NCBI RefSeq assembly: GCF_000695835.1
Contig: NZ_CP007521.1
Coordinates: 310,001 to 374,000 of the forward strand
DNA from: Mycoplasmopsis californica
Lineage (GTDB): Bacteria; Bacillota_I; Bacilli_A; Mycoplasmatales; Metamycoplasmataceae
DNA: 64,000 nucleotides
Reading direction: 5' to 3'
The stretch's first letter is position 1; each line of letters starts with the position of its first letter. Positions 7,777-63,938 of this stretch are shown here, piece after piece. The notes beneath the pieces are model-generated. The model did not search any database and was not told the origin of the DNA. It was given only the letters and a program-made list of their open reading frames with translations. Made by a program: the position numbers and the translations under genes.

Positions 7777-10700
7777 ATGAAGAACAAAGCAAGAAATAAA
7801 AAGATTTTAGCTGCTCTTTTAGGAACTGGTATTCCTGCTGCAGCTTTAGCTATCAGTGTTCCTTTTTGATACTCAAATACCGATCGTATCAAATACACAA
7901 TGAATTCTAACGCTCATAAGCAACTTGAAGAATTAATTAAGCGAAGCGAAGAGTTTTTGAGTACTAATGATGCAACTAAAAGTGGCTATGAGGAAGAATT
8001 AAAGCACAATATTAGATTAGCTAAACAAATATTAAGTCAAGAATTAAGTAATTGACACAAGGATATTCGCTCGCTTGTATTAAGTCTCTTACAACACCGT
8101 AATAAAATGCAATTGAGTTTAGCGAAAGCTCAAAGTAAAATCAATCACATAAATAACCAATCACAAGCTGGCGAACAAATGTTTGCATCATTTTCACACT
8201 TACTGAGCGCGCACGATTTGAAAGCAAAAGTCAATTCAGAACTTAAAGATTATAATAATAAACACAATTTTGAGCAAACATTTGCACAAATGGTCTCTTT
8301 AGCGCAAAAGAATGCTAATTTAATTTTGGATTTGGAAACAAAAGCTAATGTATTTGAATTAAATTTACAGACACGCCAAGATAATTTGAACATTCGTCCA
8401 TATGTTAACATTGCTAACGGAATAGTTGAATGAGTAAGAAATCAAATTCGTCGTGGTATCAGTTCGCGTGATGAAGCAGTTGTTCTAAGTGATTTGTTGG
8501 AGCAAAAATTAAATGATTTATTTAAGGTTGAAACTGAGCACAATGATGCAATTATTAAACCTATTTATGCTAAGATTGCTGACGCAAAAGCAAACATTAC
8601 TTCACAACAATTAGACGAATCAATAAAAGACAAATTGCATTCAGAATTAGATGCTATTGAATTTTTCATTCAGGCTAATAAAGGACTTTTACAAGCAAGT
8701 TTAGACCTCGATAAAAATCAAAGTCTTGCAAGTGTAATTGATGAATATTTAAGCGCTTTTTGAACACGTAATGCTCAATATTTTAATAATGTTGAGCAAA
8801 CAAAAGCTTATTTATCTTCGCAACTTGACCAAGCTAAGAATTTAGCTAAAACAATTCCTACTCAATTTAAAGCTACCCTTGACTTGTTAATTGCTAAAGC
8901 TAATAAATATATTAAAGATGCTGATTTTCAAAATATCACTGATTTTAACGCCGCGTTTATGCGTGATTTTAACGCAATCAAGATAGCACATAATCTCCTA
9001 GATAAATCGCTGACTAAATTGCAAAATGCTCAATTAGACAAGCAAAACATTCAGCTTTTAACAACAAAAGCACAACAGGTTCCATACAAGGATTTCTTTG
9101 AATACATCAAAGCAATTGACAAAATTGTTATTCAAGCAAGTGTCGATGAACAAATAAAACAATTCTACAATGAGCAAAGCATAATTTTAAAATCGCAAGT
9201 TAAGGATGCTGATATAAACTCTTCTAAATACGCACCAACATCAAGTGCGGAATTTAATACTTTAGTTCAAAGCTTGCCTAACAAATCTATAGATACCACT
9301 TTAACTCCTGATAATATCGCTAATGAATTCGCAATTAATGTTAATACTCTTCGTAAACAACAAAAAATTATTCTAAGCCATTTGATTAATGCAATTGATG
9401 CTGAATTTGCTAAGGAATCAATTCAAAAATCCCCTGACTTAGTGGCACAATGACAATATTTACGGCCAATTTTTAACTCTTATGCTAATGAATTTTCGAC
9501 AGCAACACGCCAAGAATTATCTTCATTAAAACCGTCTAATGAGTTAGGACAAGAAAACGCCATTTATCAAGCGATTAACATTTTAGAAAAAGCAAAAATA
9601 GCTGTTTTAGTTAACGCAATTGAATCTGAAGCGCAAAATATTGAAACAATTATCAATAAAACTTACCAAGATAGCGCTAATTCAGAGGCGAAACAAAATT
9701 TAATTAATCAAGTACGTTCATTTGCAACCCAAGCAAAACTAATTCAAGCTAACGCAAATTTAAGCGTTGACCAAAAACAAGCGCAATTAGCACAGATTGC
9801 TGCTTGACAAACTATTTTCAAAAGCAAAATAGACGTAGCTAAAGAGTTGGCTGATACCGCTGAGGAAGCTCAAAGGGTTTTAAAGGCCTATGAAAATGAC
9901 GATATAGCCCGCACTTATTTTTCAAAAGAAATGAAGTCAATTATAGATTTAGTTGAACAAGCTCAACAAGCACTAAAAGATCCTGCGAATGAGAGCTTTA
10001 ATCTAACTAAAATTAACCGTGATCTTAAATTTGCTGTTGATGATTTTGGTAACAAAATTGCACGTGCAGGTGGCGACAGCACTTCTAAAGCGATTAAAAA
10101 GCAAATCAAGGACACTTTTATCAACAAACGCCATAATTCACAACCAAGTATTATCGAACAAAAACTAAACCAAGCAATTGACAAATTGGCCGAAGAATCA
10201 AAATCTAACCGTGATAACACGAATAAAAACGAGCTCGAAAAACAAGCTGAAAATGAGAAAATCAAAAACAAAATGCGTATTTTGCAATTGAGCTTGCAAT
10301 CTTTATCAGATTTAGATTCTGAAAGTAAAAACCTTGAAAGTGATTTAGTTAACTCGAAAGCTCATTTAGACAAACTTGAAAAAGACTCTGCACAAAACTC
10401 TCAAAATCAGACATTAACTCAGCAAATTGAGGAAATTAAGAAAGTAAATGCAGGCGGTCAATCACAACTAGATGAAGTCAGAAAACTTATTGAATCAGAG
10501 TTATTTAATCCAAATATTCACAATAAAGAATTTTTTGACGCTAAAACATTTGACTTAGCAAAAACACGTAAAAACATTGCCATCAGCTCAGCACAGGGCG
10601 ATTTAGAAAACGAAAGCATTAACTTAGCAAAACATAAAATTAGCAATAGCGATCTTAAAAATCAAGCTCAAGTTGACATCAATCCTTATTCACAATTAAA

Positions 10701-13700
10701 TTCTGATATTGATTTATTAATCAACGAGAAAAAGGTTGTTGATAAATTTGTAGCAGATACTAAAAATGAAATTGCTACTTTAGATTCAGACATTCAAGCT
10801 AAAAGCAAAGAGCTTCAACAACTATGAAACCAAAAAGCTGAAATTTCTAATCCAGATGCTCTATCCGCAAATACCAAAGCTATATCGCAACTAGAAGGTG
10901 AAATCGCATCCTTAAGATCAGAGTTGAAAACTAAACAAGAACAAGCCAAAAACAGAGCGCAAAACATGGCTGACAAAATCAATGCTCGTCAGCAACTTTT
11001 AGCTCGCCTTAAAGAGGCTGCAATCAAATTAAGTGAAATTGATAAAACTAAATACCCAGAATTAGTTGCTACTTTTGAAAAAGATATTAACGCAAATCAC
11101 TCTTTAATTAGCGATTCAGCAGGTGAAACTAACAATAAATTATTTAATTTAAATCAAGCGATAGATAAAATTGAAATTAGTAAAGCAACTAAAGATAAAC
11201 TAGACGAGTTGAAACAACTAAAACAAAACCAATTCAAAGATAATAACGACTCATCACAACGTGATATTTTTAAAGATGTAGACAATGAAATTGAGCAAAA
11301 AATCAGTAAATATACTGAAATTTTATTCAAACCTGAGACAACCAAAGTTCAACTTGAAAACTTGATGAGTGACATTACACAAGATATCAGTAGTTTTAGA
11401 GCACAAAAACAAGCTATTAATAATAGATTAGAAAATTCTGTTAAAGATGTTGAAAAATTAATTAAGGATTATTTAGACAAAGAAAAACAAGAAAATATCA
11501 AAGGTGCTGATAATACAGAAGAAACTGAAATTAAAAAACTTGATGCCGAATTTAAAGAATTAATTTCAAAAGCTAAAAATAATAGCGAAACTCAAAGTAA
11601 ATATGATATTTTAAGCCATGACAAACTAGACGAAGTTAAAAACAGACTTTATTTAGCTTACCAAAAAGATAAATTCTTCACAAACAAACACAAGCTTGAT
11701 GAAAAAATAAAAAATCTTGAGTCAAAATTAGCATCAAAATCATTACTAAATGGAACTAATGCACAAAATAAAAAAGTAGTTGAACAATTAAAAGATGTTG
11801 TCAAAGCTATGGACGATTTTGTTAAAGCTCAAATGGACCCAAACCAAGCTTCAGAGGTTATAAAACAATTAAATAGAATTGTTGCTCTTGAAGATTTAAT
11901 TGAAGTTCAAAATAAAGTTGCTGACACTGTTGAAAATAGTGATGATAAATACAAACAATTATCTGATGTATTTAAAAATATTAATTTAAGCATAAATGCC
12001 AATGGCGCTGAGCACCCATCGGTAATTGAGATCAATTCTGAACGTGACAAACTACAAGATGCACTTGATGAGTTATTAACTTTAGACAAAATAAAAGAGG
12101 ATGTCACTAAATTTGTTGATTCAGTTAAAACTGAATACGATTCGAAAGTGAAAAATCAAGCGACTGATTTTCAAGCGGGAGCTAATAAAGTTGATGAAGA
12201 ACTTGATAAATTAAAACAAGAAATTCAAGCAATAACCCAAAGTAATGATGTCTCAAGTGACAAGAAAAAAGTTCGTGAGATTGAGCAAGAAGCAAGAAAC
12301 ATAAAAAATAATATTCAAAACACTGCTGATTTTGCCAAGTTTTTAAAAGACGCTAAAGCTGAAAAGGATAAAAGTGTTGGGGGGGCTTTAAAAACTCAAA
12401 TTGAAACAGTTAAGAATGAATTAAGCACAAAAATAAATGAAGCATCTACTGATTTTACTAAGTTCGAAGAACAAAATAAGCACACCAAAGAGATTCAAAA
12501 AATATTAGATAAATTAAAACATTTTGAAAAATCAAACACTGCATTTTCTGAATTGAAAGCTAAAATTGATACTTTACAATCGCAGGGCTCTAATGGAACT
12601 ACATCACAGAATCCGAGTGCAAAACTAAACGAGTTTTACGATAAATTAGTCGGTTATACAACATCAATGGCTAGTTCAAACTATGTAAAAGATATACAAC
12701 TTTTAAATGGCGTTATTGAGCAAACAAAAAGCTTAGTTGATTTGCAAAAAAATACCTTGGATACAGAGACAAAAATTCCTGAATTTAAATTTAATAATAT
12801 TAAATACGGTTACGATAGCGATATCGAAAACATAAGAAAAACAGTGCTTGAATCAGTTCCGAGCGCAGAATCTGATACATTTAGCGCAACTGATTTAAAA
12901 AACAAGATTGATGAATTGAGTGCATCGTTACCAGTAAAGATTCAGAAGGCTAAAGATTTACAACAAGCGAGAAAAAGAGCTTTTGAACAGATTCAACAAG
13001 CATTTACTGAGGATCAAGCAAAAGTTACAGAGCCTAAATATGCTGAACTTAAAAAAGATATGGAGACTTGATTCAAGGAAACTCTTGATAAAATCAGCAA
13101 AATAACAGATGTAAATCAAATTAATGAAATTGACAAAGCAATGAATGATTTTTCATCAACTAGATCTTTATTGGATTTATATAAACAAATTGCCGACAAT
13201 GCTGAAGAAGCTAAAGAAAAACAAGAACAAGCTAATAAATTAACTGAAAAATCAGATAGTTTAACTGAAACTATCCAGTCTTTAACTACGCAATTAGAAG
13301 CAATTAATAAACCAAACTCACAAACAGTTAAAGATAATTATTACTATAATGAAAAAAGTCCTTTTGTTTTGAGTGCTAAGATAAAAGAATTAAAAACAAC
13401 CAAAACCAAGATTGATTTATTTACCTTAGAATCACAAAAAGAACAAGAGTTAAAAGAATCGCAACTATCAGAAGATGCAAAAAAATTAGTTCATTCTGCA
13501 TTAGATAATTTCGTTAATAAAGTAAAACAAGATAGAGTTTTAAATGATTCTAAATTAAAAGAATTACAAAATGAATACCTTAATGATGGAGCATTAGGAT
13601 TTGAAACATTGTTTGAAAGTTCAAAAGAGTTAAGCGAAGCTATTACAAAAGCAGAAAAATTTGTAGTTCCAGGAGATCAAAAGGATTATGTTGAAAAACA

Positions 13701-16401
13701 AGAAACTCCAGAAATGCAAAAACTATATAAAGACCTAGAGCATGATATTGCCACTGCTAAAGATTTACTAACAAACTATGATCATTCAAAAGATTATCAA
13801 ATAGAAACTAAAAGAGATGAAATTGTTGAAAGACTTTTGAACAACTCTTATGGTTTAGTAACTAAATTAAAACTACAAAAATCTAATGAAATAAATAAAC
13901 TAAAACACGAAATTAATGATGTTAAACAACTAATTAAAGATAATTTTGGTTCTAGTGCAACAGGTTTTGAAAACATAGATTTAAATAGCCCTGATTTTAA
14001 AACTATACAATCGCAAACTGATTTAAAGACTCAAAATGATAAATATATAGAAGCAAGCAATAAATTAAAAGAGTTAAAAAAACAAGTTGTTGAACGTAGT
14101 AAAAACCAAGTAAAAAATATGGTTAATGTATTAAAACAATATGTAGATTTTCTAAAAGGAAGTACTCAAAATACTAATGGCGGAATTTCTACTGAAGAAG
14201 CAACATTATTACGCGGATACTTGTGGCTAGATAAATATATGAGTGAGTATGAAAAACATATTCTAGAGGCTCAAAGTCAGCAAAATAATGAATATGATGA
14301 AGCAAAATATGAATCGCAGGCTTTTGAACTTTTAAAACATTTTAAAATATTATATGAAGACTATACCCACTTAAATTCAATTTCTAAAGCTAGTTATTCA
14401 TCAGTGAAAGAGCAACTAAATGAGTTTAAAAAAGAATTGGAATCTCCAAATAATGACAGCTTATATAAACAAGTTGCAAGTATTCAGAACAAAAATCAAT
14501 ATAAAAGCGCCGAAGAAGTAGATGGTGAACTAAAAACAAAAATTGATACAGCTAAAACAAGTATTAGTGATTTAGGTTCTAATGAAGGTTCTTTTGAAGT
14601 AGTAAAAACTAGCGATAATTTAAGAAATGGTGATATTAGCGCAATTAGTCAATATACAGCTCAATTTAACAAGTATAAAGATGGAATAGCTAAGTTATCA
14701 AAAGCAATCAAATATACTGATACGCTTATCTATGGAAGTAGCAGTTCTGATGAGAATGGATTAGAAGGACTATACAACAAAGTTCTTGAAAATATGGATT
14801 TTTCTAACATGCTAAAACTAATAGCAGGTAGTGAATATCAAAAAAATGACTTAATTTCTAATGAACCATTTAAACCTATAATTACTGCATATAAAGCTCA
14901 ATTTGATACAATTAAGGAAAGTAATAAAAAATCAGCCGATGAAGTTTTGAAAAAGAAAGAAAACAGCTTTTTATCAAAACTTGAGGCTTTAAAATCAATT
15001 TACACGCCTATTAGCAAACTTATAGAATGATTAAACCTTGAAGAAAATAAACAATTATTCTTTAGCAGTCTTGCAGAAAATGATTCTAAGGTAATAAAAC
15101 ACATTAAGCCATTATCAAGTACTCTTTTAGAAACATTTGAAGAAAAAGTTAAGCTATTAGGAAATTCTAGCGGCAATAATGAAATCGAAATAACAAATCA
15201 GACAGAACTTTTAAATCTTTTTGAGCACTTTAACATATTGAAAGGTGACAAACAATACTTTAACACAAGTAATGTTAAGGTATATCTAACTAAGGAAACA
15301 AGTAATCCTAATTACTCGGACCAAATTTATTTAGCTGATACAACCTATAAAAAAGCTAAAATAAATCTAAGTATTAGATATCAAAAACCAAGTAATGGTA
15401 ATAACTTCTTCAATTACGTTGAAGGATTTAGAAGAGACTTTAAAGATATATGAGTTAATTTTGAAACGTTGAAATCGTTTAGTATTAAAAAAGATAATAT
15501 GTTGAATGATAGAATGAGAGAACAAACACCAATTTTTGAATGATCAAAAGCGGGCTGAAATATAAAAAATCCATATACTGAATTATTAAATTTATATGCA
15601 AAAAACGCATCATACATGAAAAAACATAATTTAAAATTTATTCGAGAAGATGTCTCGTTCCATGATGAAGAATCGTGGAATAAGGCTATGCAGAATAAAT
15701 TGGCTAAAACATCAAACATACAAAATAAGATTCCTGAGTTTAATATGAAACTTTATAACGCCATAGATCCACGTGGATCGATAGACGTTGATTGATCTAC
15801 ATCTAGTTCATTTTTAAAATATAAAATTAGATTAGTGAATGATGGCATAGTACAAAACGGTGATGGCAAGCGTTGGAAGATGCCAAAAGTTAATGGAAAA
15901 TCATTTATGTATTGAACTCAAAACGGAAATGATTTTGAAATTTCAGATGACTCTAAAAAATATGATGTTTATACCCCTTGATTTGTTTTTATCCCACTAG
16001 TACATAATGATTCATTTTGTGTCTTGCACATTTCTTATGAAAATAAATGAAGTAATAGCTCTAGCGGATTTAATAGTACTTTTTTCGAAAATATAAATGA
16101 TTATACAAATGCAAAATTTAAATGACATTTTTATTGATGAGATACCCCGAATTCAAAAGAGATTGCGAGAAAAACGAATGATAGGATGAGTAAAGAGTTT
16201 AAAAATATAAGTGATAACAATATTAAAACAGCTATTAAAGCTAATATTTTTGCCGAGGAATTCGCAAAAGCCTGAAGTGATAAAGGTGAACTTGCAAGTG
16301 AGAATTATGGTGGTTGATTCCATAGACATAATCGATGAACAAATGATACTCTTTCCGGTTCAAATTTCATTACTTTCGTCGACAAATACGAAAATACGTA
16401 A
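7777..16401 (+). CDS. Giant membrane-anchored coiled-coil protein A (2874 aa)
   Basis: One reading frame of 2875 codons, bridged by many UGA Trp; every segment is in the same frame, so it is intact. The N-terminus is short and basic (MKNKARNKK) followed by one hydrophobic helix (ILAALLGTGIPAAALAISVPF) without a lipobox Cys, so a signal anchor or uncleaved signal is likely. Residues of about 35-2480 are almost entirely charged helical/coiled-coil sequence, rich in Lys, Glu, Asp, Asn and Gln with many LxxAx helical repeats and almost no Cys. The last 390 residues are different: aromatic, beta-type and Trp-rich, starting with a region (about 2488-2575) resembling the C-terminal region of the next gene. 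Likely a fibrous surface protein. No enzymatic motif is seen. SD is aggag. Confidence 0.8.
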
Positions 16402-16428: not shown

Positions 16429-19400
16429 ATGAGTAAAAATAAACAAATTACTCTTGGCGCATTATCAATTTTGGGTTCAATATCGGCAGTGGGTACAACC
16501 TTATTTGTATTGAGTCAAAGAGATGAAGAAATTGCAAATAATGCCATAGCTAGATATATCGCTTTTAGTAGTGAATTTAATAAAAATATTCACAACATCT
16601 TCTCTTCTCAAAAAGATATTGAAAAATGAAAACAAAAAGATGTTCAAATACGCACAAAACTGCAAGATAAATATTTGACTCCATTACAAAAGTATGTTTT
16701 ATTACATGAAATTGGGCAAGAACAAGAAGAAATTATATTTAAATGAATAAATGCTCAAATTTTAGAAGCTAAATTTAATCCATATACTATTAAAATTATT
16801 CGCAATTTACTAGAAGAACACTCAACTAGAATTCAGGATAAAGATCTTTTACAAAGATTTAAAAATATCAGTCTAACTGATACAAAAAGCTCTTTAAATA
16901 AATTAGTTAATGAAAATTTACAAACTCAATTAAAATGAATAAGTGAATATAAAAATGTATTAGATTCAACAATCAATGAGCAATTTAGTTTGATTAAATT
17001 ACATTTATTGCAAAATAACAATTCATTAGATGACAACGTTGCTTTATTAAAAACTTTATACCCAACTCGTGCATTGCGTTATAAATGAATGCAAAATGTT
17101 TATCAGATTGAAAATGATTTATTTAATGAAACATTCAGAATCAATGTTATAGCAAAAAATAAAGCATCAATTGAATATGCTTTAAAAGATGCAAAAACAC
17201 AAAAAAATAAAGACTTTAACAATAAATATACCCTATATAACCAGGAAATGATTGAAACTGTCAATTTAAATGTTGTTTATATTGGCGAAACAATTGCAAA
17301 GGATAGCTTTTTAGGTTATAGTTTAGAAAAAAACGTTAAAGATGAATTAAATAAAATTGTAAGCGCCCTTAAACCTACGAATACCGTTTTGGTGAATAGA
17401 GGTATTATTGATAAACTAATTCATACAATCAATAACTCAACAAAGGAAAATAATTTAAGTAAAATTTTAGAATATGAATTAGTTAAAAACTACTTAAATT
17501 TATCAAGATATTATCTAGAATCATCAACATCATTGCTTGATTCATCAGCGAATATTAGCGATCTAGAAAATGCACTAAACGATTTTAGAAATGCTAAAAA
17601 AATGATTGAAGCAACTCAATTGAGCACAAATGAAATTGTGGCTCAATTTAAAGAATTTGTCTCTGCATACAAAAATAGTTTTACTCACTTTAAAAAGACA
17701 TTTTTATCGATCCAAGGTGAAAAAGATTACACTAAAATCTTGGCAGGTTCATTTTCCGATACAAAATCAACTCTAATCCAACATGTCGGGTATTACCGTG
17801 ACTTAATTAATCGATTATATGTTAGTGAGAAAATACTTAGTCAAACATTAAATAATTTAGAAAATCTTTCTTCATCACACAATTCACTCATCACTTCAAC
17901 AGACTTAGCTAAATTTAGGGCAATGGCTTTTGATATTATTCAAAGTGCTAAAAATCCTAATTCAGCAATTGAAAAAATTAATGAAAATATTAATGCTATT
18001 GAAGCCCTAATTGAAACCCGTGAGACATTTTCTAAAATTAATTACGAAATTAACGCTAAAATCATCAACTGAAATAGTGTTAATCCTAATATAAAAGCGA
18101 GATATTTAAGCCCTAATGCAATCCAATTATCAACAGACTTACTAAATAAAATTAGTGAGCATACCTTAGATTCAAATTTTGATGCCAATAAAATTATTGA
18201 AGAAAAAAATAATGTTCGTGAGCAATTACGGGTTATTCAGAAAATCCAATTATTATATTTAGAAACTAAAACATCTTCTGACTTACAACCATTAGACAAA
18301 TTTATCAATCTAAGTTATAATCAGTTAGACTCAAAAAACAGAGAATATATTGAAAAATACTCGTTAGATACAAAAAAACTGACAAACTTGCTAAATGAAA
18401 TTAATGTCCAAACACATAAAATAACTAGTGTCAAATTTAATCCAATAACTTCGGATCAAATTCAAGCACAAATTGATAAATACATTTTTGCAGTTAACGC
18501 CCTGGAAAGAGCTTTAGTTCACAACAAAAACTTAATCGGTCTAATTAAAGCAAAAGAATATGCTCAAAAAGCATTTAATAGAACGCAAAATAGTGAACAT
18601 CAATACACATTAGCCCAAAAATCATATTTAAATAATTTACAAAAATTAATAGAGCAGCACTCAAACTTCAACACTGACATAAATTTAACTTTTGACACAT
18701 TTTTGCACAAAAATACTGATTCAATCAGTAAAAAGCTTAATGATTTAGCTTCAATTTTCAAATATGAGGACTTTGATAAGTTAGATAAAAAGTCTAAGCA
18801 TATTCTTGACAATAATGTTTTAATAACTCAAAAAGCAGAAATTGCTAATGATGCTATTGAAGAGCTTAAAAAAGCCCGTCAAGACATTATTGCTTCACAT
18901 GATGACCCTGACAGCTTTAAAGTTGAGTTTGCTAAAATTGATAAATTAGAAAAAGACTTAATTGAAGCATTAGAAAAAAATAATCCTTCTTCTTCAGAAA
19001 TAGATAGCTTAGGTTCAGAAGCTCAAAATTTACTCAACAAAATAATTAAAATGAGAAAAGATGGCTCGTTACTTTTGAAATTAACGCGAGCAAAACAAAA
19101 AATTGACCAATTGTGACCATCAAAACAATCTGCCTCAGAAAAAAATAGTGAAGAAGAAAGAAATATTAGAGCTTTATGAGAAAAGTTATACAAACAAGCT
19201 CAAAACCCTCAACTAACTAAAGAAGATAAATTAAAATTACACGCAAAAGCCAACGCATTAGTTGATCTTTTAGATAAAGTTAAAGAATTAGAAACTAAAT
19301 TTAATTCATATAAACAAAAAGAAGCTGAATATGGCAAAAGTAACGATGGCGGACCACATACACCACAAGCAATTGCTAATGCTCAGGGCTTAAAAGATGA

Positions 19401-22400
19401 GGTTCAATCAGTTTTAAGTTCGATCAGTCTTAATGACATACCACCAAAACGTTCAAAAATTGATGAATTAATTAAGAAGGTTGGTCAAGCAGATTCTAAT
19501 TTGGAATTAGCATATGGTAAAGACAAAATTGAAGCAGTGATTAAAAAGTTAGAAAAATTAAGAATTAGCGAAAATTCAGCCAATGATCACTCAATTAATA
19601 AATTTAACGATTCAATTGAAAAGCTAATTCAGTACGGTCGAGAAAAAACTAACACTGATTCAGTATTAGATGCCAATGTTGCTCAGCAAGTTATGTCTAA
19701 AGAACTTGAATTAATTGAAGCCATTGCGCAAGCACTTAAAGTTAAAAAAGAAATATTAGCTGATACATCGATTTCATCACAAGAAAGTAAGTTAGATGCC
19801 GATGTTATAGCTAGGGTAATAGAACAAAACTTGCCAAGCGTAAGCACTGGAACAACAGATACTCCCGAAACTATTGAAAATAAACTTAAAAAGGTGCAAA
19901 ATGCAGTATTAGTTACTGAGAAAAAACATATCTTGCGCAAAAGCATAATTAATAGTTTAGGCAAAATTTTATCTGAAGAAGAAAAAGAATGAAAATTATA
20001 TTCTGATTTAAAAACTAAAATTAACGATACTGAGCGTGAGTTTAGGAATATTCTAGATTCGGATGTAAATTCTTACTCGCCAGCAGAAATTGAAGCAAAA
20101 CAAGCTGAATTAGATACCAAAATTAATGAACTTTTAGCCCAAAAAGGCCAAATTAACAATCGATATAATGAAGCTAAAAACAACGCAGAAGAGAAACGTG
20201 ATGAATTAGCAAAAAGAGTTGCTACTGATAAAAAACTTGATCCAAATGCTAAATATAACAATTATGAGAAAGCCTTAACCGAGTTTGAAAACGATTTAGC
20301 AGATCGTAAAAATTCAACCCCCGAATCATTAAAAAACAAAATTGCTAATCTAACTTCAGGATACTATAAAGATATAGCTGTAAATGCATATGAAAAATAC
20401 AAAAAATTTACTGAATCTAGCATTTCCCCAATCCTAGGAGATAGTGGCGATAAGATTAAAAAACTTGTTAGCGATTTTAAATCGAATGCTGAAAATGTTT
20501 TAAGAGGCAACTTTAACGATCAACAAGCCAATAACTTCACTGAGTTAGTACAATCATTTGCTCGTTACAATGAGACACAAAAAGATATTGCTGATTTTAT
20601 TAAAGAGCTTGAAAGCGATATTGCAAAAGGTATTAATACTGACGAAAAAAATAAGGCTATTCCGCAGCTTAAATTGTTATTAGAGTCGCAATATCAACCA
20701 ACTAAACCATACACAATAGCTAATATTGCCGAAAAACAAGCTGAAATATATGCTAAATGAAAACAAATTCATGAACAATATGCATTACGCTCAGAAAATA
20801 AAGCTAAAGCTAATAAACTTTGAGAATACTTTGATAACTTTAGAAAAGTTCCTGAAAATACAATTAATACAAATACAAAACGTCAGCAAGCTGACAAATT
20901 ATTATCAGAGATAGTGCCAAATAACGGAGTTTTAAATGACACAGTCGACCAAGAGGTTAGTGATTTAACTAAGGTTGCTTTTGACAAGGTTTTAGATTCA
21001 AATGTTAAAGCATCTAACTTGGGTGAAATTAAAAAAATTAGCACCCATCTTGATAATGTGGATGAGTTAAAAGATTATGTTAACGCACTTGCGTTACAAC
21101 TTGGTAATGCAGTTAGAGAAATAGAAAAAACACAGGTATCTGCTAGCCCGCTTATTGATTCATATATTTTTAAATACTTAAATGATTTAGTAAGTTCATC
21201 GAGAAATCAATATAGCAATTTAGCGAATTTAGATAAAACTAAAGAGCAATTAAAATCAGAATTAGCCCAAAAAATTAAAGATCTTGGCACTTCAAAAGAA
21301 TTAATTAGTAAAGTTAAACAGTTAGATAAATTAGCTAACGATGTTAAAGGCATAAGCAGTAGCACTAACTACAATTCACTAAACGGATTTTCGGGTGAAT
21401 TTAATAAAGAAATTGTGAGCGATTGAGTAGATAAGCTACTTGTTGATGCATTTTATGATTCAAAAAACCAAAATGCCGACACTTATAAACAAAAAGTTAG
21501 TGAAGCTACTGAAAAAGTAAACAAAGCTAAATTATATTTAGAAAAGCAAAAAGAAGTGGCTAATAAAATTTTAGAATGGCAAAAAGAGCGTAAAAATGAC
21601 TTGAATAAGTTTAATTCAACCAAAAAAGACGAAGATAAAATGATTCAAGCCATGTGAGACACGCTAAAACAGGTTAGTGAAATTTCCCCACAAAATATTG
21701 ATCAAATTGATGGCAAAATTCAATCATTAAGTCAAGAGTTAGATAAAAATGAAAAAATAAGAGCTGAACGAATTAAAACTTATGAAGCGTTACAAAGAGT
21801 TAAATCTAATTCTAAATATAGTGAGTTAAGTCAATTTCCATCGCTATTATCGCTAGTTGAAGCAAAATTAAAGAGCTTGGAAAAACAAATTGAAAAAGCA
21901 GATGATAATCCTACCCTACAAAAAATTCAGCAAGAGGCAAATAATATCGCTACTTCATTGCAACTTAAACTTAAATTAGCTGCAAAAATAAAAGAGTTAT
22001 ATGATTTTAGTAATAAAACAACACCTTTAAATGAAGATGTTGAAAATTACGAAAAAGCAATGATTTCAGAGCTTGAAAAAGCATCTAAATTACTGGAAAA
22101 TGGACTTAGCGAAAATAATACAAACAATTTAACTGATGAAATTGACAAAACCATTTTAGATCTAGATAAGCATAAAGCCAAAATCGATGCATTCCAAGAA
22201 TGAGCAAAAATAGATAATGAAATTAAAAATGATGAAATCATTTCGCTAGAAAACAGAAAAATATTAAATGCTAAGTCGGAAGAATTTAAAAAGGAACTTG
22301 AAAAAATATCAAGTAGTCATAACGCAGACAAAACTAAGTATGATGAAATTAATCAAAAATATAATAATTCTCAAGCACACACAGCCGATTCGATTCCATT

Positions 22401-25110
22401 CCTATTAGATATTGCTCGTAAGTTGACTTTAAAAATTAATGAAGCTAAAGCTGTTTTAGAAACAAATAAAAAAGTTGATGGTGAAGATGTATCTTCTTCT
22501 GAAGTTGACAAAGCTTATGAAACTCTTAAACAACTTATCGATTCTCCTAAATCTCAAATTAATGGCGATATTAGTGAAAAAGAAAAATACGTCAAGGATT
22601 TAGAAAATGCGATTGATGATATTGTTAGAAAAAAACTTTTATCAACAACTGAATTAAGAGATCAAGCTCAAGGTATTGAAGCATATATTCAAACTAGCGA
22701 TGACTTTAAAAACAATAAAAATATTTTAGGTCAAGATTTTGTTAAAAAATCAATCGATAATTTAACAGATATTCCGATTAAACCATCTGGTAAACCGGTA
22801 GAAGAAATCAACAATGCAAATAAATTAATTTCTGAAGCAATTAAATCAAATTGGATAGCTATTAAAACTCTTTATGATAATCAGCAATCTCTGCTAAATG
22901 AGTTAAATTCAAAGCTAGATAGTACGCAAGATTCTATAAAAGTGGACGATATATGAACAAACGGTACTAAATCAAGTTATGAATCTATAAATCCTATTAA
23001 ACAAGAAGTAAATAAGTTTTTAACAACAAAAACTATTCTTGATGACAAATTAAAAACATATGCCGAATTTAGTGATCAAGAACAGAGTTTTGTAAATGAT
23101 TATTTAAAAGATTCTGCTTCAATATTGCAAAAAGGAAAAGAAGCTTTAACTAAATTAAAAACTGAAATAAATAGTGATTTGGATGAAGTTTTGAATAATT
23201 CAACAGGTAAAGCACACCAATTTATTGATTCGATTGAAAATAGCTTAAAACAAAGAGTTAACGACCAAGGTGCAGATGATATATTTAATTTATTACCAGG
23301 TTCTAAAATTATTTTCAACCAAATTAAAGATGAATATGATAAATTAAAAAATAGTTTTAATGTATCATATGCCTCTGAATTACAATTTATTCAAGAAAAA
23401 CTATCAAATACAAAACAATTAATTCAAAATATTGACAGCTTTTACACCACGTTGAAAGAGGAAATTAACTCTTTAATTGAAAAACGTGCAAAAACAGATG
23501 AAATAATGAATTATATTTTTAAACCAGAAAAAGTAGAACAATTACGTATTGAAATAGACAAAATATACAATGCTAAAAAAGATGCTTTACAGGAACAAAA
23601 TAATCAAATTAATAAATCTGGTTTTAGCGATTTTATACAAGATACATTCATAAATTCATCAATAAGCAATATATTTAGCAAAATTCTTGAATTTAGAAAC
23701 GGAATGAATGATCCGAAAATAACTCAAATATTTCAAAAGTTGCTACAAGACAACAACAGAAACAATCATGAAGTTAAACCTAATATTTTGCTAAGAGAAT
23801 TTAAAGCAGAATTAGAAGACATTGCATCTAAGTTAAAAGCTTCTGACCAAATGGAAATTAGTGGTAATAATAGATTCTTGTTAATGTTTAATAAATTTGG
23901 GCATACAGTTTTAGATGCTAATTCACCTTTTAATCACCTTTATCTAAAAACTTATTTAATAAAAGATAAGAACAATAGCAACGGGTGATATACAGACAGA
24001 AGACAAGACGAAGAAGAAAAAAATATACAACTAAAAGTACGTTATGAATATAAACCTAATAATTTAAATATATTTAGTGATTATAAAGGTTTTGTTCATG
24101 AAGAACCATTTGAAATATCATTTAAAAATGCAAATAAATTAGGTTTAGAACCTAAGTCAAGTGGAATATTTTATAACAACAATAACCAATATGGATATGC
24201 TATTAAGCAAAAAATAGGAAATGCTGACGATCTAGGTTGACAAGGCAGTGATAAAAATACAATAATAAATAAATTAATTACTAAGTTTAAAAAAGCATTA
24301 GGCATTAATGGAAATGGTGCAGTAGTTATAAACCACTCTGAAAATAAAGTCTATGATGTTCAGAAAAATGGCGGAAGTGAAAAATTAGTTGAAAAGACTG
24401 TTCAAGACAATAAGAATTTCAATGTTAAATTTATTTTCCCTGAATTTCACCAATATCAACAAGCGACATTTATTAACTCAGATAACAGTAAACAATTAGT
24501 TCGTCTTTCGGTCGAGAATAATAAAATTGTGGCAAAAGTCATTGTTCCATCAAATTTAATTGTAGGTTTTTTAAACAAAGATAAAAATTTAAATTCAGTT
24601 GTGTTTGATGGTAAAGTCACAGATGATACAAAAGCTATGCCATCTGCATTAGTAAATACAATTAAATTCTCATTTGACTATGATACTAGTACAAAAGACA
24701 TTTATATGTATATTAATCATTATGATAGTTATCATGTGGTTAAGCATATGCAGTTATTTGAGAATGGCTATACACCTATAAAAACATATGAAAACAACAG
24801 AGCGTATGCATACGTTTGATCGCATAATGATTTTGCAAGATGACTAGCTGTTCATACAGATATTTGAGACCCTAACGGGAAAAACGCTCGTCAAGTTTCG
24901 GAAGTGAAATTTAAAAAACAAGAAAGTAATGAATCTTATGGACAAGAAATAGACAACAAAATTATTGTCAAAAACCCAAGAACAGCAGGTAAATATATTT
25001 TTACAGATTACGATAAGGACCACCCACAACATCATTTAGTTGGTGTTAACATATTACCAGTTTATAGTTCTGGAATTGATTCATTTGAGTTTATAGATTT
25101 AAAGAAATAA
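16429..25110 (+). CDS. Giant membrane-anchored coiled-coil protein B (2893 aa)
   Basis: 2894 codons in one frame through many UGA Trp, starting at ATG 16429 behind a purine-rich SD (agaagggagaag), 27 bases after protein A. The N-terminal anchor is ITLGALSILGSISAVGTTLFVL with no lipobox Cys. Residues 35-2500 are charged alpha-helical coiled coil. The C-terminal 390 residues are beta-rich; the part around 2501-2580 (LKTYLIKDKNNSNG, then NIQLKVRYEYKP) aligns by eye with protein A (VKVYLTKETSNPN, INLSIRYQKP), so A and B are paralogous at least at the tip. Their nearly identical lengths and same architecture support a duplication. A strong terminator follows. Function unknown; a long surface stalk carrying a terminal domain is the most economical reading. 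Confidence 0.8.
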
Positions 25111-25119
25111 TTATTATAT

Positions 25120-25150
25120 AACCCGGCATTCAGGCCGGGTTTTTTATTTT
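25120..25150 (+). terminator. Rho-independent terminator of giant-protein operon
   Basis: GC-rich stem ACCCGGC / GCCGGGT with a six-base loop, then TTTTTATTTT, 10 bases after the stop of protein B. Confidence 0.9.
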
Positions 25151-25293
25151 AGATGACAGCATGAGTAAATGTATTTTGGGCTTAAAATTAATATTAATAT
25201 TAAGATTAGTGCCCTTAAACAGGTTTTAGGTATTAAAACTAAATTTAGCTAATAACATACAAAATTTGTGGAATTTTTCCTCAATTTACGTAG

Positions 25294-25311
25294 TTTTTTT
25301 TTTTTTTTTTT
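25294..25311 (+). repeat. Homopolymer T18 tract upstream of giant protein C
   Basis: Eighteen consecutive Ts, ending 9 bases before a TAAAAT box (25321-25326). Tracts of this type between -35 and -10 elements switch expression of mycoplasma surface proteins (known for M. hyorhinis vlp genes, where the tract is A). Length in the population cannot be judged from one sequence. Confidence 0.9.
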
Positions 25312-25320
25312 CGAAAGGCT

Positions 25321-25326
25321 TAAAAT
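25321..25326 (+). promoter_or_regulatory. Candidate -10 box of giant protein C gene
   Basis: TAAAAT placed 9 bases after the T18 tract and 46 bases before the chosen ATG. The same arrangement (T tract, 11 bases, TAAAAT) precedes the lipoprotein gene ending the window. No convincing TTGACA is visible at 17 bases, so the T tract itself occupies the -35 to -10 spacer. Confidence 0.45.
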
Positions 25327-25372
25327 TTTCTCATAAATTAGTAATAAAATGAATGATAAAGTTGAGGATGAT

Positions 25373-28300
25373 ATGAAAAAATCTGTCAAACGAGGTTTAT
25401 TTAATTCTTTAGTTATTGCAGCCGGTGCCGCTTCTGCTGGCACCACTGCAATAACAATTAGCCATACAAGTGGGCTTAGTGCGAGTGAAATTGATAAAAT
25501 TATTGGAATTATCAATGAACAAAGCCAAAAAACCCAGCAATTTATTCAAAAACTTGACAAACATTACAATTCAGTAGATAGTCTAGAAAGTGTTATTAAT
25601 GAAACGCAAGAACAATTATCAGACATTAAAGCAAAATATCAAGAATTAAATAAAGATCAATATAAACAATACAACAAAATTAGACAAGCTCTTAAAGAAT
25701 TAAAAGATAATATTTCTAGTTTTGAAAATAAAATTGTTCAATCAAGAGAAAGATTAAAAGAAAATAAATCTAATTTAGACAAGATTGTGAATAAAGCTAA
25801 AAATACTTCACAAAGAGCAATTAAAAAGTTAAATAATACATCTGAAATCAATACTCCAGGTTTAAAAATAGCTAACAAGGAGCTTTTATTGGCGCTAAAA
25901 GAACTGGAGGAAGCCCGTAAAAAAGCGACAGATTCCAGAGAACATGTCGACAACTTGATTAAGATTGCGTCAAAAGTTGATATAGCTGAGAAAAAAGTGG
26001 CTAATTTAGTTAAAGAATTAGAAAGTTTATCTGTTGACCAATTAAAACAAAGATGATTGCAAGAAATGCAAAAACATATTATTGAATTGAATGACGGGAT
26101 AGCTAAAAGTGCAAAACTAGGATCTGACGTTGAAGAAATTACAAAATTTATTGAGAATTTAGCGCAAAAAGCAGTTGTTGCCCAAGACACAAGCTCGTTT
26201 ATCGATTCTAATCCGGAAGAGTTAAACACTGAAATTAGTAACAAAAACACTGAATTAAAACAAGTAATTGAAATTACTAAACAAACACTTTCTGACTTAA
26301 GCTCAAAACTAAACCAAATTAAAGACGAGATTAAGCAAAAAATAAATTCAGTTGAAAAAGAACAAAACGAATCTCAATCAATTATTAAAGTTTCCAAAGA
26401 TTTTCAAACTCTAGAAAAAGAACTTAACAATTCAAAACTGCGCTTAAGCGGACCTATTAAAGAAGTAAAAAATCAAGCAAATCTAACAAAATATCAAGAA
26501 GCTATTGAGAAAATAAGCGTTGTAGAAAAACGAGAACACCAAATTGCTGAAAATATACTGAATAAATTAAAATCTATTTTACATTCTGAATTAGATAATG
26601 CTAATTTAGATATAGAAAATAAACAAAAATTAAATTCCTTGATTTCAGAATCTAATTCAGTTGACCAACTTAAAAATGCTCAAAATCAAATTAAATTAGC
26701 AAAACTAAAAAACGAGCTAATAAATCAAGTTAAAGTAATGGATTTAATTTCTAAGGAGCATAAAATTGCAATTACGAATGAAATTAAGAGTGCTAATACT
26801 CAGGATTCAATTCAAAATATCAGTTCAAGCATCAATAATTTACAACAACAAAAACAAATAATTCATGAAAAAATAAAAGGTTTATCGAACTTATCTGATA
26901 AACAAATTTTGGTATTTTATGACAAAATTGTGGCTACCCAAGATCTAAACGCCTTAAATGAGATTTATGAACAAGCAATTAATTTTGAGAAAACTAAACA
27001 AAAAAGCAAGCAAGAAATAAGCGAATTAAAGAATTTAAGTCAAAGTGACAAAAATAATATTTATGTATTATTGCAAAATGGAACTAGCGACCGTGAAATT
27101 GAGTTAATTCTACAAAATGCTAAAGACTTGGATAATGCTAAAAGAAAAGCTCTATCTGATTTAACCACGTTTTCAGATTTAAATACAAAAGAAAACCAAG
27201 ATTTTGCTAGTGAAATTGCAAGTGCTAAAACTAAGGAACTTGTTGATGAGTTGCTAAAAAAAGCAAGTCAATTAAATGAAATTAAGAAAAATGCTAAATC
27301 CGAAATTCAAAATCATAGCAATTTATCGCAAAATTCAAAAGACAACTTTAAAAAAGTGATTTTAGAATCATTAACTACAGAAGAAATTGAAAAAATTAAA
27401 AATCAAGCAGCAAAATTAAATCAAGACAAACAAGACATTATTGATAAAATCCAGGCATCAAATAACTTTAGCTCAGAAGTTAAGAATGAGTTTGCTAATT
27501 TAATCAAAAACAGTGATTCTATTGAAAAAGCAAGTCAAATTTACAACGCAGTAATTGCTGTTGAGAACAGTAAAAAAGATGTTGGCAAACTAATTGAACA
27601 AGCTAATATAAATGATAAAGATAGCCTAAAAAATCAACTACAAAATAGAAAAACGCAAGAAGATGTAGATATCCTTAGAAAAAAAGTAGAGCTTGAAATC
27701 AAAAAAGTTGAAACTATTGCAAAAATTAATGAAATTTCTAAATTATCACCACAAAAACAACAAGAATTAATAGATAAAATTCAAAAAGCAACCTCTCCGG
27801 CCACTATTGAAGTAATTATTTCTGAGGCGAAAGGAGAAACGTTTAAAGTCGACGTAGCAAAAGCTAAGGAAGAAATCGAAAAGCTTAACTGAATCGCTGA
27901 AAGTGAAAAAAATAAGATATCAAAAGAACTAGATTCATTGACTGAAAGTCAGAAAACTCAGATTAAAGAAAAGCTTGATGCTTTAAAAAATAAAAATAAA
28001 CAAAAAGAAGATTTATATAATAACAATATCGCATCATCAATTGAATTTAACCAAGAATATAAAAATAAAATTAAGAAAAATATAATTGAATCATCGCTAC
28101 AAAATGACTGAGATAAAATTAAAGATGAATTTAAAGCTTTAGAAAAAGTTAAAACTGATATTAAAGATAAAATTCAAAATGAATTCAATTATTTAGGCAC
28201 AAAAGATAAGCAAGATTTTATTGCTTCATTAAAAGAAAAAGATGATAATCAAGGCTCACAAAAGATATTGCAGGACGCTAATAATTTAAATGACTTTAAA

Positions 28301-31300
28301 AAGAATTTAATTGATAAAATTACTGAACTTACACACGTTAATACTGAAAAACAAGCAATAATAGATAAGATTAAAAATGAGCAAACTAGATCTCAAGCAA
28401 CCAAATTTTATGAAGATTTATTGTTAAAATCACAAAAAGAAGAAGCTAAATTAAAAATAGAGCAAATGGACTCATTAAAAAATCACAAACAGAACTTTAA
28501 AGACCAAATTGACAGAAGCGTTAATAAGACGCTAGTTGATTCAGTTCTTGAAGCTGCTAAAATGAAAAATGAGCTAAATAAAGCTGTTGATGAAGCAAAA
28601 TATAATATCAATAAACTTGACTTAATTTCTGATGAGCATAAAAATGAGTTAAAAAATCAATTAGATGCTAAAAATAATATTGAGGAAGTTAAAAAACTAG
28701 TTAATGAAGCAACAGATTTAAATGGATATAAAAAAGAAAAAGAGTTTACTAAGTTGAATTTAACCAAACTAAGAGTCAATAGTGGTATTGAAGCTGAATT
28801 TGGCAAGAAATTAAAAGACGCTAAGACTAAGTCAAGTGTTGATACAATCGTTCGTGAGTACCAAGAATGAAATCAAAAAATTACACAAGCACACAATAAA
28901 GTTGACACTTTTGCCAAATTAGATCCATCATTAAAAACTGGATTTAAAGACGAAATTTCAAAAGCAAATAAAAATGAAATTGAAGGAATTTTGACTCGGG
29001 CAGAACGCCTAAATAACACAAACATTAATAATATAGCCGCTCTAAATAGTTTTAAATTGCTTAATAATGCTTATAAGAAAAAAATTGAGACTGAAATTAC
29101 GCGGCAAGAGGATGAAACCAAGTCTAATTCTAAGCTTGATGAAGCTAGAAGACTGTCAAAAACTAAAGAAAATACCAATAACGAAATAAAAAGTAATAGT
29201 TTTTTAACTAACCAACAAAAAAATAATTTTGAAAGTCAATTAATTGCAGTTGATGATGAAAAAGGCGTTCAAAAAGTTAAAGCTCAAGCTCAAAAAGACC
29301 AAAAGAAAAAATCTGATAGTATTAATAAAATATCTAGACTTGATTATCTATCCGCTGCCGAGAAGGAAAATGCCAAAAAACAAGTTGTTAATGCAAATTT
29401 AGATAACCAAATAGATAATAGCGTTAAAAATGCTGAGAGTTTAAATGGACAAAAGAAACAGATTGCTAATCAAATTGATAGTTTAACTTTATTGCCACAA
29501 GTTCTAAAGACGCGTGCGAAAAACAACATTAAAAACGCAAATGGAATACCTGCTGCTCAAAAAATTCTTGACAATCATAAAGCATTCAACACTAAAAAAC
29601 AAAATGCTAAAAAATCTATTGATAGCTTTAATCATTTAGAAACAACACAAAAAAATAAATATAAAGACAGAATAGATAAACTTGAAAAACAAAACCAAGT
29701 TGATGGTATTGTGAATGAAGCAAGAAAAGAAAATGATTTAGTTAAGTCTAAAAAAGAGTCGGCAACTATTAATGAATTCACTTATTTGAGTGAAAAAGAA
29801 AAAACACAATTTAAACAATTGATTGAAAAACAAAAAAATGTACCTAATGTTAAGAAAGAATTTGAAAAAGCTAAAAAATTAAATAACGATAAGAAAATGT
29901 GAGCTGATAAGATTAATGGATTAGGTCTTATTTCGCAAGGTCAAAAATCGAGTGCGATTGAACAAATTAAAAAACAAGATGGTGCAGAAAAAGCCAAAGC
30001 AAAATTCAATGAATTGAATGGCTTAAACGATAAAAAGAAACCAATTGAAAAAACTATTCAATCATCAAATAAAATTACTCAAAAAGGTAAGCAAGATTTA
30101 AAAGATGAGTTGCTAGACAAAACTACCGAGCAAGAATTAAACAGCATAAACGAAGGAATCCAAAGTTGAAATAGTGAAACTGATAAAAATGCTGGCTTAA
30201 TTGATACGGCACAAAAAGTTAAAGCAGAGGTTCAAAAGCTAGCTAAAATTGACAATAATTCAGTACAATCTGTGTTAAATTCATTGAATTCGTTAATTTC
30301 TACAAACACAAAAAATAATAATGATTCCTTATCTCAATTAAAAAGTAAAAATAATAATTTAGAATCAGAAATAAGCAAAAAATATAATGAGTTAAATAAA
30401 GCGATGCAAAATTTTTCTAATAATTTTAGAAGTAAAATATTCAACTCACAAAATCTTCATAAAAAAGATGCTTTATTGAAGTTAAAACAAGAATTTGATT
30501 CAAGTATTCAAACCTATAAAAATATTAATACACAACTAAAAACACGTTTTGGCGATAGTAAAATTAATCAATCTGAATTTAATAAAGTGATTAAAGAGTT
30601 AGAAGAAGTATCAAAATTATTAAATGAACAAATTGATTTAACGAAAAAATATGATGAACTAAAAAACACAATTGATTCTGGATTGCTGAGCGAAAGTCAT
30701 AAAGCAATGTATCGTTTAAGAATTGAATCTAATTTAGGTCAAGATACTGCAAGTATTGGCGAATTTGAAAAACTTAAAGAAGAAATAGAAACAAAAATAA
30801 AAGAAAATCAGGAACAAAAAACCCATTTTGATAAAAAAATTGAAATGATTAAAAAATCAGCAAGTGCGTTAATAGTTAATCTTCCAAATAATAATGGTAT
30901 TAAAAGTTCAAACCAGTCTATGAGCGTTAATTACAAGAATATTGCAGACAATTATAAAAATGCATTTAATGACATTCTTAAAGAAAATAATGTAAAAAAA
31001 GCAAATTCTGAATTAGATAAAATTTATGAAATGATTTCAATGTATGAAAAAGGATATACTGATTTGAATAAGTATATTAGCCAAAGAGGTCAAGACGAAG
31101 CAACAAAAAATCAAGCTTGAACTAAATTTGATACATTATCATCTAACCTTAGAGTTGAAATGACTAAAATTATAACCAATGGTTCTAATCCACTTGATAA
31201 TGAATTTAGGCCATTAGATAGTTATAACAATGTAATTAATCAAAAATCATATTTTGATGCTTCGGTTAAAGAAGCGAAAGAAATAATTTTTAGAAAAGAA

Positions 31301-31621
31301 GTTGATCTAATTCAAAAAGAATGAATCAAGGATACAAGTTATCATCAAACTAGTTACAAAATACAATACGTTGTAATTAAAGAAAAAAACGGCAAAAAAG
31401 AAATCCATGTAACTAAAAACCCGCTTTCAAATCGATTTAAAAATATGAATATTAAATTTGTTCATCATAAATCGCCAGGTGAAACAATTCAATTACAAAC
31501 CGATTGAACTAAAAAATACTTCATTACAGCGGATATTATAATAAGTAGTGGCGATGGTGATGGACTTGAATACAAAATTGAGGACGTAAATGTAAAACAA
31601 ATAAACACAGTTAGAAATTAA
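25373..31621 (+). CDS. Giant surface protein C with about 24 GA-like three-helix modules (2082 aa)
   Basis: ATG 25373 is preferred because GAGG lies 8 bases upstream; ATG 25349 is in frame but has no SD. The N-terminal anchor is LFNSLVIAAGAASAGTTAITIS, resembling protein B (SAVGTT/SAGTT), again without lipobox. Residues 30-390 are coiled coil. From about 390 to 1600 a unit of 45-50 residues repeats about 24 times: a helix with AK..I, then a loop FxxLS or LDxIS, then xxKxxFxxxIxxA, then VxxILxxAxxLN. This matches the layout of GA (protein G-related albumin-binding) modules, found in streptococcal protein G, staphylococcal Ebh and mycoplasma surface proteins. A further coil and a beta-rich end of about 120 residues (1950-2082) follow. 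Host albumin binding is a family-based inference. Confidence 0.78.
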
Positions 31622-61461: not shown

Positions 61462-62472
61462 CTATCATACTAGGCCGTAAAAGTTAGCCTCGATAAATAA
61501 ATCATTGGCAGATTTTCAACCCAAAATTTCTCTTGGCATATCATTTATTCTTTTGGTAATTTGGTCTAATATTTCTTGCGAAATTTGATTAAAATCAAAT
61601 CCTTTTTTGTATTCGCGTCTTATAAGTCCATTTCAGTGTTCGTTTGATCCTCTTTGAAAAGAGGCGTATGGCTCAGCTCTATATATTTTTATATCGAGTC
61701 ATTTTGCCAAAATACCTATTTTTTCGAATTCTATGCCATTATCAATAGTTATAGTTTTTACTATTAATTGTCTTTCTAAAACGAGTTTTCTTAATGCTGC
61801 ATTCACCTTCATTGGGTTTTTACTTGGTATCAAAATCGCAAAACCGACTCTGGTTTTTCTCTCTGTTAAAGTAAGAATGTTGTTATATCCAGTAGCTCTT
61901 TTCCCAACTATCATATCAGCTTCTCAATGACCATATTCTTCACGATTATCTATCGATTTAGGTCTTGTTCATATCGGGAATACATAATCAGCTGATGTTA
62001 CAAGGCGACTAATTACGCTTGCATGTCTTTTTCCACCCTTTTTATATGAGGAACGCAATAAATTTGATCTTTTGATTATTCATTTATTTGTTTTGATTCA
62101 ATTGAATACTGTTTTTAAGCAAGGGATTTTAATTTTAAAATTCTCTTTTATATATTTATGGGTAAGTTTTACCCCATAATATTTTTTGTCAAATTTTTTT
62201 AGAAATAATTCACTAAATTCACTATATTTACTATTCAAAAATTTAAAATAATATTTATGATAATGACGTCTTTGGGCTTTGATATCAGCATAAAATGGGG
62301 AATATTTCCCAAATTTATCTAAATTTCTTTTTATTTCTCTACTTACTGTAGATGGGTTTTTATGTAATATATTTGCAATTTTTCTTATTGATAAATTTAT
62401 TTCTAAATAACTTTTAATTGCTTCTCTATCACTTTTTGTTATATGGGTATATTTTTTAATGCTATAATTCAT
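61462..62472 (-). CDS. IS30-family transposase
   Basis: 336 aa, start at ATG 62472 because AGGAA lies 6 bases upstream; an in-frame ATG at 62535 (within the IS end) would add 21 residues. N-terminal HTH: THITKSDREAIKSYLEINLS and SIRKIANILHKNPSTVSREIKRN, the IS30 DNA-binding signature. DDE catalytic core: HWEADMIVGKR (D), VKTITIDNGIEFEKIG (D), and GSNEHWNGLIRREYKKGFDF (E), the IS30 family ending. The protein runs unbroken through seven or so UGA Trp and ends GLVW-TAG, so the element looks active. It cuts at the terminal repeats and inserts at hairpins. Confidence 0.93.
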
Positions 62473-62666: not shown

Positions 62667-63938
62667 TTAGACTTTAATTTCCTCATCATATTTCGGCGAT
62701 GTCGAAAATAAGAAATCATCTGTTATTAAACTATCATCATTATCATCGTCGTCCAAGGGCTGGAATTCTTTGCTATTTTTAATTTCTGAAGGATCTAAAT
62801 CACCTTCATTAAGTAAATCTCTAAGTTCGGCATCTTTTTGTAAAGTATCCATTAAATCTGGGTCACCTTTAATTACATCTAAAATTTCAGGTTTTAGCTT
62901 TATAAGGTGTTGGGTTTGCATCAATCCATTTACTTCATTAATTAGATTTTGTTGTTGCGACATTAAGTCTGCATTAGTTGATTCCAATTCCTTGATTTTT
63001 TTGTCTTTCTCACTATCTTGAATAGATGGATTTGTTTGATTTTTTAGTTGCTGTAATTCTTGTTGAAGTTTTATGTTTTCTTGTTTTAGTTGTTCTGTCT
63101 CTTTTTTTAATTGCTCAGTATCTGATTTTGTTTGCGGTGTAATTTCATCATCTTGTGGCGCGTCAGATAGATTTTGTTTATCGATTCCTTCATCAGCAAA
63201 AGCCTTTTTAAGTGCTTCGATTGCTTGCTTAACATTTTTATCTTTTTTATCTGCTAAATCTTTTAATTTAAATTCTTCTTTGAATTTTAAAAGTTTTGTT
63301 AAATCAGATTCATTAAACATCGCAAGTTTGTTTTTTATTTCATCAAGGTATTTATCACCCTCGCTTTTTAAAGTTTTAATGCCTAATTTTTGGGCAACAA
63401 GATTAATTACTTGGTTTGTTTTCTCAACTTTTTCTAGTTGATTGGTTAGTTCTTTAATTTTTGCGTACAAATTATTAATTTTTTCGTCATGCGAAATTTG
63501 CAATGGATCATCATTTTGCTCATTATTAGGTTGATTTAAACCTTCTTCACCAAATGCTTTCCTCAAGGCTTCTAGTGCCTTTTTCACTTTTTCATCACTT
63601 TTATCAGCAATATCTTTAAGATTAAATGCATTTTTAAATTTTGAAATCTTAATAAGCAGATCTTTATTTATATTTTTTAATAATTCAAGAATTTTAGATA
63701 CCTTAAACACTGTTGAAGTATCTTTATCCAAGCCTAAATTTATACTAATTTCATCAATAATTTTCGCTAATTCCTCTAATTCTTTTTTATATTTATTATC
63801 GGAATTTATTGGGCTTTGGATGCCTGAATTTTGTTTTGTTAATAGCTCATTGATTGGTTTAACTTTTTCTTTTGTACTACATGATGCAGCTACAAATGGA
63901 ACAACTCCTAAAGGAGCTAATAATAAAAGTTTTTTCAT
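62667..63938 (-). CDS. Lipoprotein with tandem repeats and coiled coil
   Basis: 423 aa. Signal MKKLLLLAPLGVVPFVAASC, lipobox VAASC, lipidated Cys20. Two homologous tandem units lie at about 50-134 and 159-253; both end in the pattern FKxxFxLKDxADKxDxxVKxAxEAL-KAFxxEG. Next is a coiled coil (LKKETEQLKQENIKLQQEL, about 270-340), an acidic region (DDDDNDDS) and a short tail. The two repeats point to unequal crossing-over, a common way to vary mycoplasma surface proteins. SD ggaga. Expression is probably controlled through the poly-T tract upstream (63985 on). No function is recognised; surface antigen likely. Confidence 0.8.
   Translation of the reverse strand: MKKLLLLAPLGVVPFVAASCSTKEKVKPINELLTKQNSGIQSPINSDNKYKKELEELAKIIDEISINLGLDKDTSTVFKVSKILELLKNINKDLLIKISKFKNAFNLKDIADKSDEKVKKALEALRKAFGEEGLNQPNNEQNDDPLQISHDEKINNLYAKIKELTNQLEKVEKTNQVINLVAQKLGIKTLKSEGDKYLDEIKNKLAMFNESDLTKLLKFKEEFKLKDLADKKDKNVKQAIEALKKAFADEGIDKQNLSDAPQDDEITPQTKSDTEQLKKETEQLKQENIKLQQELQQLKNQTNPSIQDSEKDKKIKELESTNADLMSQQQNLINEVNGLMQTQHLIKLKPEILDVIKGDPDLMDTLQKDAELRDLLNEGDLDPSEIKNSKEFQPLDDDDNDDSLITDDFLFSTSPKYDEEIKV

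Follow-up and report, generated by a model that had tools for sequence, protein, structure and literature searches.

Does the tract of 18 Ts in front of the gene for a giant GA-module protein control that gene through its length? Transcription factors are very few in mycoplasmas, and changes of tract length are among the main means by which they vary their surface. The tract lies within a window of 64,000 nucleotides (the whole stretch of DNA that was analysed), which corresponds to positions 310001-374000 of a source genome consisting of a single contig of 793,841 bp with 69% A+T. Judging from sequence comparisons, we consider it probable that T18 is a slippage-prone promoter tract exerting length-dependent control, either tuning or switching, over the GA-module giant. 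We have taken the genome to be that of ST-6T and, because the ST-6T assembly was made from PacBio reads (PMC4081997), the count of 18 may be wrong by one or more.

The T18 tract and its putative promoter

The features of the locus, in window coordinates, are as follows.

25120-25150, + strand: intrinsic terminator, an 8-pair stem with a T tail, belonging to giant gene 16429-25110, which lies upstream
25268-25293, + strand: 5' flank of T18, GTGGAATTTTTCCTCAATTTACGTAG, read from the sequence; slippage would alter both its helical phase and how far it lies from the -10
25294-25311, + strand: T18 homopolymer tract, which spans roughly -22 to -39 counted from the predicted start and takes in the -35 position
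25312-25320, + strand: 9-nt spacer CGAAAGGCT, read from the sequence
25321-25326, + strand: putative -10 hexamer TAAAAT, proposed from its sequence, its conserved position in homologues and a genus-wide peak of distances
25364-25367, + strand: Shine-Dalgarno-like GAGG, 5 nt ahead of the ATG at 25373
25373-31621, + strand: GA-module giant, 2,082 aa, an ORF under code 4
63985-64000, - strand: the other long tract of the same set, a T17 in the genome that is truncated where the window ends; it precedes lipoprotein gene 62667-63938

Direct reading bears out the arrangement described in the sequence-only reading: G25293 is followed on the + strand by T18, nine bases and TAAAAT, all in front of the GA-module giant. 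A consensus promoter scan did not call TAAAAT at 25321 because the scan accepts only promoters whose -35-like hexamer reaches 4/6 matches or more. Given a spacer of 17 nt, the -35 hexamer would occupy 25298-25303, which is all T, and at the usual spacers of 16-18 nt it lies entirely within T18. There is no alternative -35 at the usual spacing from TAAAAT in the T18 promoter region, the -35 window sitting within T18 itself, and the predicted hexamer remains all-T at any tract length of at least 14. As the tract covers the -35 and stays all-T, slippage would shift the upstream flank rather than the spacing between -35 and -10. This agrees with the earlier suggestion that slippage would alter the distance from the -10 to upstream contacts.

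The gene behind the tract, which has a second in-frame ATG at 25349, encodes a protein of 2,082 residues that lacks cysteine altogether and has a single N-terminal hydrophobic stretch. The lipobox cysteine is missing and the protein is therefore not a lipoprotein. The GA-type modules attributed to it were recovered as eight stretches matching the Pfam GA module (PF01468; E = 2.9e-39, 133.5 bits compared with a curated cut-off of 24). A search of solved-structure sequences with the giant found no GA structure, and the one basis for calling the modules putatively albumin-binding in type is the Pfam family match.

Long tracts in the source genome

A/T runs in the window range in length from 1 to 8, and beyond these there are just two long tracts: T18 and the 16 Ts at the window edge, which belong to a T17 in the genome. 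The same gap is seen in 151 kb of the source genome, a sample chosen so as to include all long tracts, where A/T runs fall off smoothly to 8 and the next length is 16. A genome-wide T9 search gave 82 matches, which correspond to one T9, one T10, no runs of 11-15 and eight of 16-20 (T18, T17, T19, T18, T18, T17, T16 and T20). Extrapolation of the decay of run lengths in the window predicts about 6e-4 runs of at least 16 per genome in comparison with the eight seen. A dinucleotide shuffle gives a far weaker contrast (12 T12 matches compared with a mean of 4.6) and understates the excess because the TT steps contributed by the tracts themselves are kept. T18 is a homopolymer longer than expected by chance and it lies in a promoter region.

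Five of the eight long tracts are T-sense upstream of surface-protein genes, namely three tandem lipoprotein paralogues, the lipoprotein gene 62667-63938 and the GA-module giant. The other three are A-sense to the nearest gene start (genome coordinates):

A-sense tract: nearest gene is that of lipoprotein 649655-651058
A20 tract, 750132-750151: before an alcohol-dehydrogenase-like gene (750200), whose product is not a surface protein
T18 tract, A-sense: about 190 bp from gene 226536-228926, which encodes a 796-aa protein

Because two of the eight (the A20 and the T18 near 226536-228926) are not clearly at surface-gene promoters, a long tract alone is no proof of a surface switch. An IS30-like transposase gene lies downstream of lipoprotein gene 62667-63938, at 61462-62472 of the window, and a copy of it lies at 651455-652465 of the genome, near the tract-associated lipoprotein gene 649655-651058.

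The three tandem lipoprotein paralogues, at 100.6-107.8 kb of the genome, have promoters of the form TTTGCTTCC-Tn-ATAATAG or TTTGCTTCC-Tn-ATGATAG. In these promoters a possible -35, TTGCTT, precedes the tract, and the -10 (TATAAT or TATGAT) has the last T of the tract as its first base. The spacer is n+1, so that T17, T18 and T19 give spacers of 18, 19 and 20, and these promoters fit the layout described for the vlp genes of M. hyorhinis, with the tract between -35 and -10. From sigma-70 spacing the T17 copy is predicted to be the most active of the three.

Phase variation driven by such tracts was already proposed for M. californicum in 2014 (PMC4081997, PMC4110761). Homopolymeric tracts were reported before seven surface lipoprotein ORFs of ST-6T, with phase variation predicted (PMC4081997), and in HAZ160_1 three genes were reported to have poly-T ahead of their repeat regions (PMC4110761). 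The ST-6T paper names lipoproteins and does so without layout, comparative or expression evidence, whereas the GA-module giant is free of cysteine; the giant is therefore probably outside the seven and extends that list. What the present comparisons add is this cysteine-free giant, the gap in run lengths, a conserved arrangement of tract and -10 and, from the sequences of relatives, evidence of lability.

Tracts in related genomes

When the first 509 aa of the GA-module giant were searched against 61 genomes, protein matches were found in five others. Two of these are of particular use here: G035, which we have taken to be M. bovigenitalium HAZ 596 (PMC5331495), and G034, a close relative of G035. 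M. bovigenitalium is the closest relative of M. californicum (PMC4081997). The homologues in these two genomes are 30-39% identical to the giant, and GA modules were found in two of the four proteins scanned. A DNA search with the T18 intergenic region gave only short chance matches in relatives. Five of the homologue genes in G034 and G035 have T15-17 upstream, then 9-11 nt, then TAAAAT or TAGAAT, although the remaining flanking sequence has diverged.

G034 198100: T16, then GCACAAAGG, then TAAAAT
G035 306707: T17, then GCGCAAAGG, then TAAAAT
G034 203571: T16, then GCTTAATGAT, then TAGAAT
G035 32585: T15, then GTCTTAACTAT, then TAGAAT
G035 24980 (minus strand): T15, then GCTTAATGAT, then TAGAAT

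There is no tract near the start of the homologues at 424 kb and 116 kb of G034, at 202 kb of G035, or in G005 and G061, showing that the tract is present in some members only.

Tract length varies between near-identical copies and between orthologues in relatives. The orthologous promoters G034 198100 and G035 306707 can be aligned without gaps over flanks that are 95 and 96% identical, and carry T16 and T17 respectively. A lipoprotein pair with flanks 99 and 96% identical has T15 and T14, and two G034 paralogues from another surface family have T16 and T17 between flanks identical at 260 of 260 bases. In these promoters it is thus the tract that changes fastest. Homopolymer sequencing error could yield some of the one-base differences but hardly the range from T14 to T20 within one family. 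A tandem family of surface proteins with MSKTKIILASTLSV is located at 541-562 kb of G034 and, in G035, at both contig ends and at 15 kb; each member has T14-T20, then GTAAACTCA, then a TAGTAT-like hexamer. For M. bovigenitalium and its relative, no published account of this contingency family came to light.

The layout is more widespread still. Nearly all the tracts examined in G034, G035 and G005 are T-sense with a gene start 27-160 nt downstream, and most of the genes behind them have signal or lipoprotein leaders. Across the 61 genomes there are 150 matches to T14 or longer followed by TADAAT within 3-21 nt, compared with 62 for the reversed control. The distances from tract to TADAAT peak at 8-10 nt: of 115 distinct spacers, 40 have this length, compared with 18 if the distribution were flat. 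The nominal P, about 5e-7, exaggerates the significance, since related genomes do not count as independent samples. Ahead of this count, near-duplicate spacers of G045, a further relative, were manually collapsed. That genome has 44 of the matches, with repeated spacers such as AGCAAAATGTAA, which suggests a large gene family that may be under tract control.

Proposed mode of action and alternative explanations

We propose that T18 acts as a simple-sequence contingency element within the promoter of a surface-protein gene. RNA polymerase would take TAAAAT as the -10, and strand slippage during replication, a lability seen by comparing relatives, would add or remove Ts. A change of length would leave the -10, the 9-nt spacer and the T-only -35 unaltered, and each T gained or lost would turn the upstream flank through about 34 degrees of the helix. 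Contact between this flank, or a protein bound there, and RNA polymerase would then be expected to change in a graded or an ON/OFF manner, and cells would vary in the amount of GA-module protein that they display, independently of other tract-controlled surface genes. Use of the promoter, output that depends on length and an immune or adhesive benefit are each presumed in this proposal. If the tract does work in this way, a surface protein that ranks among the largest in this agent of bovine mastitis would vary from cell to cell, independently of the lipoproteins, which would have a bearing on serology and typing. A tract that covers the -35 is also a concrete and testable alternative to the model of variable -35/-10 spacing.

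In genome G081, which we take to be M. hyorhinis from a 92% match to a Vlp leader, the tract of the vlp locus reads A19 on the coding strand, and TADAAT does not occur 3-21 nt past it. ON/OFF transcription of vlp has been linked to the length of a tract described as lying between -35 and -10 (Citti and Wise 1995, as cited in PMC10502178 and PMC2268961). The vlp genes encode lipoproteins and have poly-A on the coding strand, in contrast with the Ts on the coding strand before the GA-module protein; what the two share is a homopolymer of similar length in the promoter of a surface gene. The vlp promoter is thus an analogue that supports the principle in a different construction. The proposal in the sequence-only reading of a candidate phase switch like that of vlp holds in so far as T18 is in a promoter region, is not due to chance, has a conserved position and variable length in relatives and belongs to a set found mostly before surface genes. 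The likeness to vlp does not extend to the poly-A tract or to the layout downstream of it.

The nearest geometry to that of T18 is the rheostat of sabA in Helicobacter pylori, where the length of a T-tract beside the -35 tunes output with a period of about ten bases by changing how upstream elements and the core promoter are aligned (PMC4081817). Both are promoters of surface proteins, an adhesin in the case of sabA, but the sabA tract is upstream of the -35 whereas T18 covers the -35 position itself. The bacterium is unrelated and the likeness is one of convergence. Closer to hand, each of the five surface paralogues vpbA-vpbE of M. bovoculi has a homopolymeric thymidine tract in its putative promoter and phase variation was predicted (PMC3931370); the gene family and species differ from those of the GA giant, and the T-tract in the promoter is common to both.

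It is possible, if doubtful, that all this reflects a genus-wide class in which T14-20 replaces the -35 and stops 8-10 nt short of the -10, surface genes being tuned through the helical phase of the DNA upstream with no change in -35/-10 spacing. Such tracts would independently control the non-lipoprotein GA-module giants of M. californicum and M. bovigenitalium, and would also be joints for promoter exchange.

The main alternative is that T18 is a constitutive element, with T/A-tract DNA from the -35 to the UP region strengthening the promoter of an abundant surface protein and any slippage-driven drift in length barely affecting output. At any length the tract takes in the -35 position, and a distance of 8-10 nt to the -10 is widespread in the genus, both of which would be expected of such an element. 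In a related mycoplasma, M. agalactiae, the vpma genes have a thymidine tract directly ahead of the -10 that reportedly gives rise to no variation; the genes switch through Xer1 recombination and, in phase-locked mutants, the negative phenotype was never seen (PMC2268961). However, a helpful T-tract need not reach 16-20, and runs of 11-15 are absent here. G003, G014, G002 and G044, four of the five genomes in which vpma/vsp-like leaders were sought, have no run of T16 or longer, which suggests that the tract tested in vpma was shorter than those considered here. In the copies of vpma/vsp-like genes examined in G003, G014 and G037 there is no T/A run above 7 within 200 bp upstream. We regard the constitutive explanation as unlikely, though it is the most probable of the alternatives.

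Considerably less probable is that long T-tracts are mainly shared sites for the exchange of promoters between surface genes, with changes in length a by-product. The promoter of G035 24980 is chimeric with the joint at its T15 tract, the upstream side being 94-97% like one GA-homologue promoter and the downstream side 92-97% like another. This is a single case, most tract promoters are not chimeric, and insertion-sequence copies nearby could have shifted the upstream half.

The last two explanations can be set aside. Chance or a sequencing artefact in AT-rich intergenic DNA, for which the base composition and the PacBio assembly might speak, is rejected as highly improbable by the run-length spectrum, with its eight long runs and its gap at 11-15, and by conservation of the tract's position in assemblies of other species. 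Equally remote is a terminator U-tract of the upstream gene or of a leader RNA: T18 does follow a same-strand gene, but that gene has a complete terminator at 25120-25150, no G+C-rich stem precedes T18, and the tracts of relatives are equally far from the -10 despite quite different upstream sequence.

The upstream gene, 16429-25110, and the one before it, 7777-16401, encode proteins that show no BLASTP similarity to one another; no Pfam family was found in the former. Both proteins (2,893 and 2,874 aa, respectively) are without cysteine in their first 40 residues and have N-terminal hydrophobic segments.
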